DNA of 28,478 nt from a virus. The notes beneath the pieces are model-generated. The model did not search any database. It was not told the DNA's origin and saw only the letters and a list, made by a program, of their open reading frames with translations. This document shows positions 8,129 to 23,046 of the stretch, piece by piece (position 1 is the stretch's first letter; each line of letters starts with the position of its first letter). The stretch spans positions 1 to 28,478 of the IMG/VR virus record IMGVR_UViG_3300047316_000193; one strand, 5' to 3'. Made by a program: the position numbers and the translations under genes.

Positions 8129-8334
8129 GGCCGCTCCTTCTCCCGCTCCGCCATCATCGCATCCGCCAAATTGTAGGCATCCTCCGCCACCTCACTGAAC
8201 GTCCAGTCCCCCGCCCGCGCGTCCGCCAACATCCCACTCACCGCCTGCCCCGCCAACCAATCCCGCAACTGCATGTCCGCCGCCGCCACCCGCCGCACAA
8301 TCGGCGGCACCACCAGCCCCACATGCCGCCTCAT
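8125..8334 (-). CDS. Conserved small phage protein
   Basis: 69 residues, start MRRHVGLVVPP set by an ATGA overlap with the preceding gene; a longer upstream start is not needed. The pattern LRDWLAGQAVSGML, then VAEDAYNLADAMMAE, is a familiar small phage protein type (RDWFAxQAL...AYxxADAML) of unknown function, usually found among short accessory genes. It is predicted to be all helical. It overlaps the lipoprotein gene by ATGA. Confidence 0.7.
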   Translation of the reverse strand: MRRHVGLVVPPIVRRVAAADMQLRDWLAGQAVSGMLADARAGDWTFSEVAEDAYNLADAMMAEREKERP

Positions 8335-8555
8335 GACAACCTCCGCTTCGTCTGCGCAAAGGTGATACACCCGCGATCATGCAGAAACGGCGTCAGCGTC
8401 TCCCCGCCCCGCAGATCCACCGGATACCGCTGACGCTCCGTGCACGTCGGACACGTCACCACATATTCCGCGCCGACACACTCAACGTGGCACCCCGTGC
8501 GCCGCATCCGCTCCGCAATCCGCCTCGTCACATGCACCACCGCAAACTCACTCAT
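8331..8555 (-). CDS. Small zinc-ribbon-like protein
   Basis: 74 residues. It contains C-P-T-C in the middle with Cys22 and Cys27 before it (GCHVECVG) and an HDRGC motif near the end, consistent with one metal site. Its start overlaps the end of the RHH gene by 8 nt and its stop forms an ATGA with the next gene, so it is part of one coupled mRNA. Function is unknown. Confidence 0.6.
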   Translation of the reverse strand: MSEFAVVHVTRRIAERMRRTGCHVECVGAEYVVTCPTCTERQRYPVDLRGGETLTPFLHDRGCITFAQTKRRLS

Positions 8556-8748
8556 CCCCCACCTCCGCCAACACCGCCGTGGCCGCCCGACGCCTCGACG
8601 CCTTCACGAGCGGCAAGACCTTCAACGCATACAACTCCACCCCGCGCCGCACCGCCGCACTGGCACACACCCCCGTCGCCACGTTCAACGCCTTCAGCCG
8701 CTCCACCGTCGCCTCATCCACTGTCACCGTAATCCGATTCATACGCAT
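8548..8748 (-). CDS. Ribbon-helix-helix (Arc/CopG-type) DNA-binding protein
   Basis: 66 residues. An N-terminal beta strand (NRITVTVDEATVERL) is followed by two helices (LKALNVATG, ASAAVRRGVELYAL), the standard layout of a dimeric RHH repressor. It heads the chain RHH, zinc protein, 69-aa protein, lipoprotein, terL. The inverted repeat CATAC-N10-GTATG overlaps its start codon and is a natural candidate operator for autoregulation. The first ATG (8748) lacks a Shine-Dalgarno; a second in-frame ATG lies at 8742. Confidence 0.7.
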   Translation of the reverse strand: MRMNRITVTVDEATVERLKALNVATGVCASAAVRRGVELYALKVLPLVKASRRRAATAVLAEVGDE

Positions 8749-8765
8749 ACGTTAGCACGAGTATG
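8746..8765 (-). promoter_or_regulatory. Inverted repeat overlapping RHH start: candidate operator
   Basis: On the minus strand CATAC (8765-8761) and GTATG (8750-8746) form a 5-bp inverted repeat with 10 nt between, so the arm centres are about 1.5 helical turns apart. The right arm contains the RHH start codon, and GTATG is repeated once more 6 nt further in. RHH repressors commonly bind such short paired sites over their own promoter. Confidence 0.35.
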
Positions 8766-8954
8766 AGGTGAGGTCCCACGGAGAAAAAATTGTGCGGGGA
8801 GGACAGGCCGTGGCCGGGGCCGGGTCCCTCGGCGGGATCTCCGCGCCCGCAACCGGCCACGTTCGGTCAGGACGCGACCATCCGGCCGGACCATAGCCGA
8901 GTGGCCCTCCTGCGTCGTGCGCGTGCCGTAGGGCATCGTAGGCCGCCCTGGCGC
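8749..8954. other. Gene-free segment with inverted repeats between RHH and terS genes
   Basis: No convincing gene is seen here. The segment holds the 9-bp inverted repeat CGTGGCCGG (8809-8817) / CCGGCCACG (8853-8861) with a GC-rich 35-nt interior, and the 10-bp palindrome TCCGGCCGGA at 8881-8890. A short A-run follows GGAG at 8781-8789. It could be a terminator-like or regulatory leader for the RHH-terL operon, or part of a packaging site beside terS. Confidence 0.4.
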
Positions 8955-9482: not shown

Positions 9483-9504
9483 TACAGACTTTCAATCGGA
9501 AGTT

Positions 9505-9787
9505 TGTCGGATTCTAACAAAGAGCGGCTGTGTAGTTCTTACACTCTTCCAGACAGTCCGCGGACAGGGACATGGACGGACACCCCTCTAGAGAGAGGGG
9601 GTTGTCCTGTCCGGTTGTCCGGAAGGTGTCCGTGAGGGAAAGTGTCGGACGGCTGTCCGCGGCTGTAAGTCTTTGCCGTGGTGATGGTTGCTGACTTGTC
9701 CGGACAACGGTCGGACAGTTTCGGACACGAGATTTTCGCGCTGTCCGGAGCGCAAAACTATGCTCAGAATGATTAGAAGTTGTCCGG
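9505..9787. repeat. Iteron-like cluster of TGTCCG/CGGACA: candidate origin or pac site
   Basis: Twelve exact TGTCCG or CGGACA hexamers occur between 9561 and 9786: starts at 9561, 9577, 9608, 9616, 9627, 9654, 9697, 9701, 9712, 9722, 9742 and 9781, plus near matches at 9505, 9556 and 9643. Several extend to TTGTCCGGA, and 9696-9707 is the perfect palindrome TTGTCCGGACAA. Copies at 9701, 9712 and 9722 are 10-11 bp apart, one helical turn. A hairpin (CCCCTCT-AGAG-AGAGGGG, 9583-9600) lies inside. An AT-rich patch (9752-9780) is interspersed. The segment from 9483 to 9809 has no accepted gene. It lies between the RepA-like gene and terS. Confidence 0.7.
9583..9600. repeat. Hairpin within the iteron cluster
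   Basis: CCCCTCT and AGAGGGG form a 7-bp stem with a 4-nt loop. The outer GGACA (9578-9582) and TGTCC (9603-9607) can extend it with a 2-nt bulge, so two of the repeat units become the base of the hairpin. On single-stranded DNA this could be a priming or recognition structure. Confidence 0.5.
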
Positions 9788-9809
9788 AGAACTGGTAAAG
9801 CGTGTGTGC

Positions 9810-11066
9810 TCAATGCTTTAGCCCGATTAATCCGTTCGGAAGCGTGACGTAGTAGCCCTTCTCGAGTCCGCGGCGGACGGTCTTGGAGACGGTGTCCGGC
9901 TTGTCTTCGGGTAAGGCGCTGATGATGGCTTCCATGCTGAGGGGTTGAAATCTGAGCGTGGCATGGAGGCGCTGGCGCGTCGTAAGGGTGAGGGCGAACT
10001 CAGGCGTATCGGTGGCCGAGGTGCGCTGGATGCGCGTGGCGTCCGGGCCGAAATAGATCGAGAGGGCCATGGGGGCGCGGAGCCGGCCAGTGTTGCACTT
10101 GCGCTGAGACAGCAGCACTTGGATTTCCGGGCCGTCGTCGTCCGGGTTGGAGCGGCGGATGTGCCAGGTCGCTCGAGCGGAGTTCTGCCAGAAGCCAGAA
10201 CCGAAGGGCTTCTTGTCGCCGTCTTCGGCTTTGGTGACGTGGGCGATGAGGAGCGACCCGCAATTGAGCGAGCGGAGCGCGCGGAAGTAGGCGATGGCGG
10301 ATTCGGCGGCTTCCGGAGGGCCCTGGCAGCCGAAGGCGGCCGAATCGAGGATGACGAACTCGACGGCGTGCTCGAGGCAGATATTGCGCAGCCGGTCGGC
10401 TTCGATAATGAGGGGGCGCTCGCAGCGGGCGTAGAGGATGGGCGGGAGCGCGAGCGGGTAGAGCTTGTCGAGCCGGCGCCGATGGTCCGCGCCATCGGAT
10501 TCCCAGTCGGCATAGAGCACGCGTGAACCCGTGAGCGCGATCTGGCCGGCCGCCCAGAGGCTCAGGAGGCTTTTGGCCGAGCCGCCGTCACCAAAGAGGA
10601 TGGTCGGTTGCTTCTTGGGTAAGGTCCAGCCGTGGAGGTCGAATTCGCCGGCCTCGGGCGGCAGGTCCACGTCTGCCAACAGCGAGATGCTGTCGCCGGT
10701 GCGCTCGGCCTGAATCACACGGAAGCAGAGCTCTGAGAGCCAGCCCTCCCAGTCCATGTCGTCAGCAAGCGCTCGTTGGGCGAGGTGCTTGGCCCTGGTG
10801 CTTCGGGCTTGCACGCTGGACAGGTTGAAATCGCCAGCCGAGAGGATGCCCTCGATGGTCCTGGCGCCGGCCATGTTGAGTCGGACGACGAGCTCACCAA
10901 TGAGTTCGTCCCGCTCCCGTCGCAGCCGCCCGATATCGAAGGTGAGGAACGCTCGCGGCACGGCGAGGCGGTAGGCCGAGAAGCCGGTGACGTTGAAGGT
11001 GCGCGGCCCCCAGTCGTTCGGATGGGGCGCAGGCACAGCATCACGCGGTTTATCCGCGCGACTCAT
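9810..11066 (-). CDS. RepA-like replicative ATPase/helicase (RecA fold) with C-terminal winged helix
   Basis: 418 residues. Walker A is GDGGSAKS (159-166), Walker B VEFVILD (235-241), and a sensor-like GSLLIAHVTK (270-279) precedes GSGFWQNSARATWHIRR (289-305), which is characteristic of RSF1010 RepA/AAA_25 hexameric ATPases in phages. The N-terminal 130 residues are helical and probably regulatory. The last 70 residues (TTRQRLHATL, EDKPDTVSKTVRRGLEKGYY) look like a winged helix. It would unwind DNA at an origin, and the iteron-like cluster starts right after its stop. The ATG at 11066 has no strong Shine-Dalgarno and is coupled to a tiny leader ORF by ATGA. Confidence 0.85.
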   Translation of the reverse strand: MSRADKPRDAVPAPHPNDWGPRTFNVTGFSAYRLAVPRAFLTFDIGRLRRERDELIGELVVRLNMAGARTIEGILSAGDFNLSSVQARSTRAKHLAQRALADDMDWEGWLSELCFRVIQAERTGDSISLLADVDLPPEAGEFDLHGWTLPKKQPTILFGDGGSAKSLLSLWAAGQIALTGSRVLYADWESDGADHRRRLDKLYPLALPPILYARCERPLIIEADRLRNICLEHAVEFVILDSAAFGCQGPPEAAESAIAYFRALRSLNCGSLLIAHVTKAEDGDKKPFGSGFWQNSARATWHIRRSNPDDDGPEIQVLLSQRKCNTGRLRAPMALSIYFGPDATRIQRTSATDTPEFALTLTTRQRLHATLRFQPLSMEAIISALPEDKPDTVSKTVRRGLEKGYYVTLPNGLIGLKH

Positions 11067-17165: not shown

Positions 17166-17445
17166 GCGCAATCCGTGGCGACCGCTGACGAAACAGCCGA
17201 AAGCGACCTTCGCGAGAGCGCCATTCGACGGGCAGCCGATCCTTCTCGCCAACCGCACACTCTGGTGCCGTGGCTATTGGTTCGTCGGCGGCGACAAGTC
17301 GCACGGCTTCGTCACGAGCGTGCCACACAGCTTCGTCCACACGCGCGCCGACTATTCCGGCTGGACGCATTGGATGCCTGAACCGAAGCCGCCCAAGCTC
17401 GTGCGCGAGTTCGCGGGGCCGGAACCGAAGGCGGGGCGACGATGA
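17155..17445 (+). CDS. DUF551-like protein
   Basis: 96 residues, ATG with GGAGG 8 nt upstream. NPWRPLTKQPK, then DGQPILLANRTLWCRG and SGWTHWMPEP, follow the DUF551 plan. The C-terminal 48 nt (17398-17445) are repeated exactly at 19717-19764. Function unknown. Confidence 0.65.
   Translation: MASERNPWRPLTKQPKATFARAPFDGQPILLANRTLWCRGYWFVGGDKSHGFVTSVPHSFVHTRADYSGWTHWMPEPKPPKLVREFAGPEPKAGRR
17398..17445 (+). repeat. 48-bp exact direct repeat, copy 1
   Basis: Identical to 19717-19764. It encodes LVREFAGPEPKAGRR, the stop, and the ATGA overlap that starts the next gene. The two copies lie 2.3 kb apart in the same orientation, so recombination between them would delete the genes between. Confidence 0.9.
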
Positions 17446-19553: not shown

Positions 19554-19764
19554 GCCCCTCGCGCTCCGCTACCGCCGCCGCCTCTGGCAGACGCTCCGGA
19601 CGGTGGAACGTGGCTGAGACAAAACGGCCGCACAATGCGTGTGCCGCAAGCGACCGCGCCGCTGGTGCATCACTCACTGGCTGGAGACATTCAACCCGGT
19701 CACCGGCAAGCCGCGTCTCGTGCGCGAGTTCGCGGGGCCGGAACCGAAGGCGGGGCGACGATGA
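19543..19764 (+). pseudogene. Remnant of a DUF551-like gene
   Basis: In one frame, an ATG at 19543 reads 24 residues (MPAKPLALRYRRRLWQ...) to a TGA at 19615. The same frame then continues with RRWCITHWLETFNP and ends in the exact LVREFAGPEPKAGRR repeat shared with the DUF551-like gene at 17155. The T-H-W motif and shared tail mark it as the end of a DUF551-like gene whose front is missing or interrupted. A GTG at 19640 could still express the tail. Confidence 0.5.
19717..19764 (+). repeat. 48-bp exact direct repeat, copy 2
   Basis: Identical to 17398-17445. Here it ends a gene remnant, whereas copy 1 ends an intact DUF551-like gene, so this is the likely product of duplication followed by decay. 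Confidence 0.9.
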
Positions 19765-22243: not shown

Positions 22244-22435
22244 ATGTTTCAGTTCTTCGTGCGAGTCATTCTCGGCGTCGTGCTCTACGTCGCGTTCTTT
22301 CTGTGTTTGCCGCCGGTGCTGCACCTGATGGGCTTCAGCATTGGCGAGGACATGCTGACGCTGCTCCATGTCGTGCTGGCGCTTGGCGTGCTGGCCTATG
22401 CCATCTGGGGCCGGCCCGTGCCGGTGCCCTGGTAG
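22244..22435 (+). CDS. Two-span small membrane protein
   Basis: 63 residues, ATG with GGAG 7 nt upstream. Two hydrophobic helices (FFVRVILGVVLYVAFFLCL and LTLLHVVLALGVLAYAIW) flank a short acidic turn (GFSIGEDM). A holin-like or accessory membrane protein is possible, but such two-span proteins are common in phages. It precedes the structured RNA segment. Confidence 0.6.
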   Translation: MFQFFVRVILGVVLYVAFFLCLPPVLHLMGFSIGEDMLTLLHVVLALGVLAYAIWGRPVPVPW

Positions 22436-22447
22436 TAGACTCTCTCA

Positions 22448-22508
22448 GCCGAACGGGAGGACACTGGGCGCTGTGGTTCCCCTAGACAGCGAGTTTTCCC
22501 GATTCGGC
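22448..22508 (+). ncRNA. Candidate structured RNA, 5' domain (long hairpin)
   Basis: GCCGAA (22448-22453) pairs with TTCGGC (22503-22508), then CGGGA (22454-22458) with TCCCG (22497-22501). Inside, ACT pairs with AGT (22463-22465/22492-22494) and CGCTGT with ACAGCG (22469-22474/22486-22491), with an 11-nt loop GGTTCCCCTAG. About 20 base pairs in one arm, interrupted by bulges. There is no U-run after it, so a simple terminator is unlikely. Confidence 0.5.
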
Positions 22509-22522
22509 GTCGTGTTTTCAGT

Positions 22523-22651
22523 TTGGCGCGGCAGCACGGACAGGACGTGCCCCAACCTTCATGTCGCACATGTGGTGGGTCAAAGCCGGGTAGCTCCCGG
22601 TAGGACTGCGATTGCAGGCCGCCAGCGAGTATCAAGCCTCGCCCGCGCCAA
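22523..22651 (+). ncRNA. Candidate multi-branched structured RNA
   Basis: A perfect 9-bp closing stem (TTGGCGCGG 22523-22531 with CCGCGCCAA 22643-22651) encloses five hairpins in order. P2: GCACG/CGTGC (22534-22550, loop GACAGGA). P3: an 11-bp arm (22551-22579, loop CGC). P4: CCGGG/CCCGG (22586-22600, loop TAGCT). P5: CTGC/GCAG (22606-22617). P6: GCGAG/CTCGC (22625-22642). Unpaired joints include TCAAA and TAGGA. It lies in the only large gap of this otherwise packed gene series. It matches no RNA family I can name; a tRNA or tmRNA reading fails at the T-loop and anticodon arm. Confidence 0.6.
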
Positions 22652-22674
22652 TTCGTTTTTCATAGGAGGCCCTG

Positions 22675-23046
22675 ATGGTGAGACTGCTTCGCTCCCGTGC
22701 CGTGTCCGCTGTCGCGCTCGTGCTGGCGCTGTCGATCGTATCGGCGTGCAATGAAAAGCAGGCCGCGGCTGAAGCCTTGATTGGGCTATCGCAGGCGGCC
22801 ATCCTCGCCAATAGCACACTCGACGCCAACGGCAAGCCGCTGCTGTCCACGGCTGATACCGGCGCGGTGCTGCAATACGCGAATCAGGGGTTGGTCGTCA
22901 TCCAAGCATCGGCTAGCGGTTGGAAAGTGGCGCTCAAGACGGGCTGGTCCGCGGCCGTCGATGACATTCAGGCGAAGCATCCCAACGCCGGGACGACCTT
23001 GCGCGTGGCGCTGGCGGCGGTGACGGCCGCGATCGGGGCGCTGTGA
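22675..23046 (+). CDS. Lipoprotein
   Basis: 123 residues, ATG with GGAGG 6 nt upstream. A basic start and hydrophobic segment (VSAVALVLALSIVSAC) end in the lipobox V22-S-A-C25. The mature part is helical and Ala-rich (EALIGLSQAAILANS, LRVALAAVTAAIGAL). It follows the structured RNA closely. Role unknown; a spanin or exclusion role cannot be judged from sequence. Confidence 0.65.
   Translation: MVRLLRSRAVSAVALVLALSIVSACNEKQAAAEALIGLSQAAILANSTLDANGKPLLSTADTGAVLQYANQGLVVIQASASGWKVALKTGWSAAVDDIQAKHPNAGTTLRVALAAVTAAIGAL

Follow-up and report, generated by a model that had tools for sequence, protein, structure and literature searches.

A candidate intercistronic RNA in a phage, with a conserved hairpin and a conserved closing helix around an unconserved interior

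GOLLD is an RNA that occurs in phages. Here we analyzed a gap between two genes of a viral sequence of 28,478 nt (IMG/VR record IMGVR_UViG_3300047316_000193), the whole of which is referred to as the window. As with the large, ornate RNAs GOLLD and ROOL, as these appear in the excerpted text of PMC12286853, the gap holds a candidate structured non-coding RNA, but the element is much smaller and has no Rfam match above threshold. In the excerpts of PMC6121014, R1.1 of phage T7 is described as an RNA of 60 nt located between genes 1.0 and 1.1, with 4/5 nt in its asymmetric internal loop. The first domain of our element (D1) is of similar size (61 nt), likewise lies between phage genes and is predicted to form a hairpin whose internal loop is also asymmetric, a trait of T7-type RNase III signals. 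It differs from R1.1, as there excerpted, in its internal loop (predicted 6/1 vs. 4/5) and in the clamped variable domain that comes after it; cleavage of D1 is putative. In T4, the structured leaders at the translation starts of genes 43 and e also place a hairpin 5′ of a phage ribosome-binding site, according to the excerpts of PMC3014915, but those leaders belong to a given gene, whereas the element described here has neighbors that vary from phage to phage. No RNA built of a hairpin and a clamp was found among the best 1-15 literature matches listed from open-licence papers, which constitutes a weak test of novelty.

The gap and its predicted domains

The gap (22436-22674) is flanked by two rightward genes. 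An earlier, sequence-only reading had considered it devoid of genes, and indeed no reading frame is open in all three of its versions (window and the related loci L003 and L004, introduced below), on which ground a protein-coding gene was rejected; that claim needs qualifying in that one + frame stays open across both the window and the L004 version. The same reading had placed a bulged arm at 22448-22508 and a perfect 9-bp stem at 22523-22531 with 22643-22651. Both are located as claimed, and ViennaRNA recovers the two domains, folding the gap into the bulged hairpin D1 and a multibranch domain (D2) closed by the 9-bp helix (the clamp). The features are as follows.

22436-22674, + strand: whole gap, 239 nt, all bases between the stop codon that ends the 63-aa gene and the start codon (ATG) of the 123-aa gene
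22436-22451, + strand: 5′ anchor TAGACTCTCTCAGCCG, the sole portion of the gap present in the record of L002
22448-22508, + strand: D1, predicted bulged hairpin of 15 bp, a 6/1 internal loop and an apical stem of 6-8 bp
22523-22531, + strand: 5′ arm of the closing helix (clamp)
22532-22642, + strand: D2 interior, absent in conserved form from L003 and L004
22534-22550, 22551-22579, 22585-22601, 22603-22620 and 22625-22642, + strand: five predicted hairpins of the D2 interior
22643-22651, + strand: 3′ arm of the clamp, with a compensating G to A in L004
22650-22659, + strand: tail AATTCGTTTT, kept in L003 and L004 despite the different next gene of L004
22664-22669, + strand: Shine-Dalgarno sequence AGGAGG, identified by eye, for the gene that follows; mostly paired in the prediction
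22244-22435, + strand: upstream gene, 63 aa, hydrophobic by eye
22675-23046, + strand: downstream gene, 123 aa, a putative lipoprotein with the lipobox read by eye

The 123-aa downstream protein gave a helical predicted model (mean pLDDT 79.6). A 392-aa protein encoded upstream had no match in solved structures, Pfam or PHROGs, and its predicted structure (mean pLDDT 39.8) was not used.

Relatives carrying or lacking the element

A search with the downstream protein returned four viral records, and a second search with the alignment of their proteins returned the same four. One of them, G001 (L001), is 99.6-100% identical to the window in three long blocks and carries the gap unchanged. The clamp is present in both G003 (L003) and G004 (L004), where the D1 region is 97% identical over the first 99 bases of the gap and 86% identical over the first 100, respectively. 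G002 (L002) has only the first 16 bases of the gap in common, and the D1 model R1 found no D1 in the pieces of its record. The comparison rests on three distinct sequences, namely the window, L003 and L004.

Across 50 sources (548,074 bases), model R1 gave four matches at E up to 1, which were the window, G001, G003 and G004. It gave 0/20 in terminase-related viral records, in a search run without a positive control. The terminase search for a wider phage group returned 21 viral loci and 18 in bacterial genomes, two of the viral ones being close (100 and 82%, the first of which is G001), and it led to no further element. BLASTN found no match for the gap among 50,697 phage records, for its first 100 bases among 72,556 plasmids, or for the D2 of L003 and the D2 of L004 among phage records. 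Exact patterns were also scanned over viral contigs, where TGGGCGCTGTGGTTCCC occurred in 7 stretches (3 of them the element), TTTCAGTTTGGCGYGG in 32 (3), GTTTTCCCGATTCGGC in 10 (3) and CAATTCGTTTTCAAGGAG in 4 (2). The element stretches lie in G001, G003 and G004 (for CAATTCGTTTTCAAGGAG, in G003 and G004), and the remainder were judged unrelated from their flanks. These scans of the viral collection revealed no carrier beyond the window, G001, G003 and G004, with the proviso that they register exact matches only, miss diverged copies and possibly left out the window's own record.

The element fills the interval between the stop codon of the upstream gene and the following Shine-Dalgarno sequence in all three versions, and its neighbors change. 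The upstream gene is replaced in L003 and L004 by different small hydrophobic genes (hydrophobicity judged by eye), and in L004 an 88-aa gene sits between the element and the lipoprotein gene. As far as these gene arrangements go, the element is independent of both neighboring genes. The proposal that it could be a cis leader specific for the lipoprotein gene was rejected, since it precedes a different gene in L004 and different upstream genes precede it in L003 and L004. At the corresponding place L002 has a 62-aa gene, preceded by an unrelated strong fold of 91 nt (L002 3740-3830); BLASTN of this fold in phages gave 8 records with partial cover and a best E of 0.08, which were taken as chance.

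When the pairs of D1 were compared among the three sequences, all 69 of 69 cells were paired; 20 of the 23 pairs are invariant and 3 are changed one-sidedly, while slid versions used as a control were only 39-54% paired. D1 of L003 is identical to that of the window over 61 nt, and D1 of L004 has three one-sided, pair-keeping changes and 3 nt extra in the apical region; two-sided changes in D1 were not seen among the three sequences. For comparison, 15/67 fourfold sites of the next gene differ from the window in L003 and 20/66 in L004. Since short near-identical patches are present elsewhere in these mosaic genomes, the identity of D1 could reflect recent exchange. The linker between D1 and the clamp measures 10, 8 and 11 nt in the three versions. 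In the clamp, 26 of 26 cells are paired, with one L004 cell excluded at an alignment gap; there is one double change in L004 (C-G to U-A), and two changes to G-U are found in L003. Stem-breaking changes in D1 or the clamp, which would have spoken against the proposed fold, were thus absent from the relatives, and all observed changes keep pairing. Covariation is a different matter: although pair-keeping changes occur, the clamp signal was reached by 161/500 column shuffles and is not significant with three sequences.

The interior shows none of this conservation. Its length is 111, 95 and 77 nt in the three versions, the observed pairwise alignment scores were reached by 981, 664 and 405 of 1000 shuffles, and the three interiors fold differently from each other. 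Judged by these alignments, the part enclosed by the helix is completely different in both related phages that carry the element. Of the two-domain architecture proposed at the outset, the pairing of D1 and of the closing helix is retained in two relatives and the inner arrangement is not. A TAGCT loop is indeed present at 22591-22595, but it has no alignable counterpart in the relatives, and the suggested dimer contact through AGCT was rejected on that basis. Taken together, the RNA of the gap probably forms two conserved elements, a hairpin and a closing helix.

Fold stability and known RNA families

The stability of the gap as a whole is modest (z -1.82, with 7/200 shuffles as stable; z -1.73 and 24/500 in a repeat), and its opposite strand folds about equally (z -2.13, 5/200). 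The excess over shuffles anticipated by the sequence-only reading resides in D1 (z -3.3, 1/500; second run z -3.39, 0/200) and in the clamped D2 (z -3.3, 2/500; second run z -3.53, 0/200), and does not extend to the D2 interior, which without its clamp is not significant (z -1.87, 19/400). The interiors of L003 and L004 gave z -1.26 and +0.35 (50 and 248 of 400 shuffles). The five inner hairpins, which had been put forward as a defined architecture, are about what GC-rich DNA yields. In a scan of 130-nt segments over both strands of the window (20 shuffles each), the D2 segment ranked 17 of 876 after being placed by hand in its best register, outside the regular grid, and no regular-grid segment at the element was among the 30 best listed. 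Stability alone is unexceptional at the element. The D2 of L004 reaches z -1.8 on the + strand, the D1 of L004 has a shifted minimum-energy fold of its own, and the L004 element as a whole does not stand out from shuffles (z -1.0, 85/500).

These values raise the question of whether the structure arises by chance folding of GC-rich intergenic DNA and has no function. The modest z of the whole gap (-1.8), the rank of 17 even in the best register, the unremarkable interior and L004 element, and the lack of significant covariation with three sequences are all in line with this explanation. Nevertheless, we consider it rather unlikely, since in the window D1 and the clamped D2 were each matched by only 1-2/500 shuffles, the observed stem changes keep pairs, and L002, though unrelated in sequence, is again strongly folded (0/500).

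Comparison of the strands bears on a further alternative. The D2 of L003 folds better on the + strand (z -3.6 vs. -0.8 on the - strand), as does the unrelated fold of L002 (z -4.5, 0/500 shuffles, vs. -0.5), a bias attributed to G-U pairs, as these read A-C on the complementary strand; this favors an RNA read in the coding direction over a feature of double-stranded DNA. No clear difference between the strands was observed in the window (D2, -3.3 vs. -2.5; D1, -3.3 vs. -3.4) or in the D2 of L004 (-1.8 vs. -2.2). The alternative in question is a junction at the DNA level, in which D1 and the clamp arms would be patches of homology for cassette swaps, the arms being inverted without any role in RNA. 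Such a junction would suit genomes that are very mosaic, with repeated linkers (for example AAGGAGGCCGACCGTGGC, present in six copies that are 89-100% alike) and an exact 48-nt repeat; it would also suit the non-homologous stretches that flank D1 in L003 and L004, the end of similarity with L002 after 16 common bases and the folding of D1 as single-stranded DNA (z -3.86, 1/200). Against these stand the strand-specific folds of L003 (D2) and L002 and the fact that changes in the D1 and clamp stems all keep pairing (G-U on the + strand, one double change), and we regard this possibility as somewhat unlikely.

In agreement with the sequence-only reading, which recognized no known class, Rfam 15 (riboswitches and phage RNAs included) gave no match above the gathering threshold in the whole window; matches in searches at relaxed E were all below threshold, and none was obtained at E up to 2 in the 3-kb loci (L036-L039) around the four relatives' places. 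ARAGORN reported no tRNA or tmRNA in the window and 7 loci, and the general tRNA model RF00005 matched 0/5 records at E up to 10, on which grounds tRNA and tmRNA identity was rejected. The D2 of L003 is nonetheless its record's best match to tRNA-Sec (RF01852), at full length with 20.7 bits and E 0.0028 for the record, the next best in that record scoring 12.7 bits; on short queries, E for the whole Rfam library was 0.061 and 0.036. The gathering score of 47 bits was not reached, and the model had no match in the window or in the record of L004. Viewed as a fold, L003 4881-4979 is a sub-threshold tRNA-Sec-like structure whose clamp encloses a T-loop arm of the tRNA type. It resembles tRNA-Sec and other T-loop RNAs in its arm junction, with that arm beside the closing helix, and is unlike tRNA-Sec in its sub-threshold score and in an anticodon arm that, by eye, is not of normal form. 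The T-loop hairpin of L003 is GCGG-TTCGACT-CCGC and the T-loop-type hairpin in the D2 of L004 is GCGG-TGCAAGT-CCGC; such hairpins occurred in 51/5000 and 25/5000 shuffles, respectively, for a motif that was selected only after being seen, and the window's own interior has none.

It is conceivable that the element is a trans-acting phage RNA, in which D1 and the clamp would serve as an invariant scaffold for a variable interior that does the work (as a sponge, antisense RNA or decoy) and evolves rapidly in an arms race; in one variant, the tRNA-like interior of L003 could decoy host factors that act on tRNA. We rate this on a par with the DNA junction. A constant frame around unrelated interiors, independence from both neighboring genes, and the tRNA-Sec match of L003 (20.7 bits, with its T-loop hairpin) alongside the similar hairpin of L004 are what such an RNA might show. 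However, the Rfam scores are far below gathering (20.7 vs. 47; 18.8 vs. 34 for the match discussed next), the general tRNA model and ARAGORN found nothing, the window's interior is without the post hoc T-loop motif, the interiors are no more stable than shuffles, and the alignment of the hairpin common to L003 and L004 was equalled by 405/1000 shuffles. Moreover, neither a sigma-70-type promoter nor a terminator of its own was found at the element; inside the gap there is no intrinsic terminator (a short GC stem-loop with a direct T run), the single such site lying at 22273-22292. The more specific proposal of a new type of phage RNA, with a fixed docking hairpin and a fixed clamp holding an exchangeable cassette (tRNA-like in L003, a T-loop RNA in L004) that would counter host factors in trans, for instance defenses acting on tRNA, appears distinctly improbable.

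The remaining resemblance is to the twister-sister ribozyme (RF02681), whose best match in the record of L004 is the D2 (positions 1-81, 18.8 bits, record E 0.0042; library E 0.092 and 0.051 on short queries). A self-cleaving ribozyme ranks last among the alternatives, after chance folding, and we hold it to be very improbable. While L004 has a hairpin with the loop TGCAAGT in common with twister-sister, its score is below the gathering value of 34 bits, eight positions are marked as non-standard pairs and the core pairs are not formed; furthermore, the window and the record of L003 have no match, and an unrelated place in the record of L002 reaches 15.2 bits. Both the tRNA-Sec and the twister-sister matches seem to rest largely on the T-loop-type hairpin, and these resemblances are leads only.

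A possible intercistronic role and other sites in the window

Considering its position, the conservation and pairing of D1 and the clamp, the unconserved interior and the change of neighbors, all of which are observed, our preferred though tentative explanation is that of a cis-acting RNA element which lies between the cistrons of a phage operon and is passed between phages independently of the flanking genes, with D1 as a recognition or processing hairpin and the clamp as an insulator of the ribosome-binding site. From these features we infer that the element is transcribed, processed and insulating. D1 (22448-22508) would be the conserved recognition hairpin, most likely a signal for RNase processing by analogy with those that T7 puts between its early genes. 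The clamp (22523-22531 with 22643-22651) would tie off the enclosed sequence, giving the following ribosome-binding site (10-12 nt 3′ of the clamp) a compact, insulated 5′ end from which to start. The interior may then be a replaceable filling that must merely stay looped out.

Several observations run against the cis-acting element. The record of L002 is without D1, the whole L004 element is about as stable as shuffles and its D1 fold is shifted, the clamp's covariation does not reach significance, and double changes are absent from D1. In addition, the mean unpaired probability of the Shine-Dalgarno sequence is 0.36, 0.18 and 0.37 in the three versions, i.e., it is predicted to be 63-82% paired, which fits poorly with a freely exposed site and is the weak point of the insulation reading. 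Conserved pairing of the Shine-Dalgarno sequence with the 5′ anchor was considered and rejected, as it appears solely in the predicted fold of L003. As it stands, with few homologues, the element is a modest finding. If real, it would be an RNA module mobile between phages independently of flanking genes, with its base helix kept and its core replaced, and as such a useful natural example of modularity at the RNA level in mosaic phages. It would also be a candidate, compact and simple to test, for mRNA processing in phages beyond the T7 and T4 models.

Other sites in the window deserve mention. The 18-nt linker AAGGAGGCCGACCGTGGC holds a ribosome-binding site and lies at six places among small genes (16302, 16606, 18689, 18912, 19105 and 19331), and the perfect 48-nt repeat lies at 17398-17445 and 19717-19764; both are possible sites of cassette shuffling. 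A gap between two leftward genes (9483-9809) contains 12 of the window's 26 TGTCCG/CGGACA words, and both strands of 9483-9813 are much more stable than shuffles when folded (z -6.2 and -5.3, 0/100 each). By eye, this gap looks like replication-origin iterons beside an ATPase-like gene (9810-11066). Finally, at 8158-8780 the window has about 620 bases, between blocks 99.6-99.7% identical to G001, where G001 has about 190 bases, which points to a strain-specific insertion or replacement.
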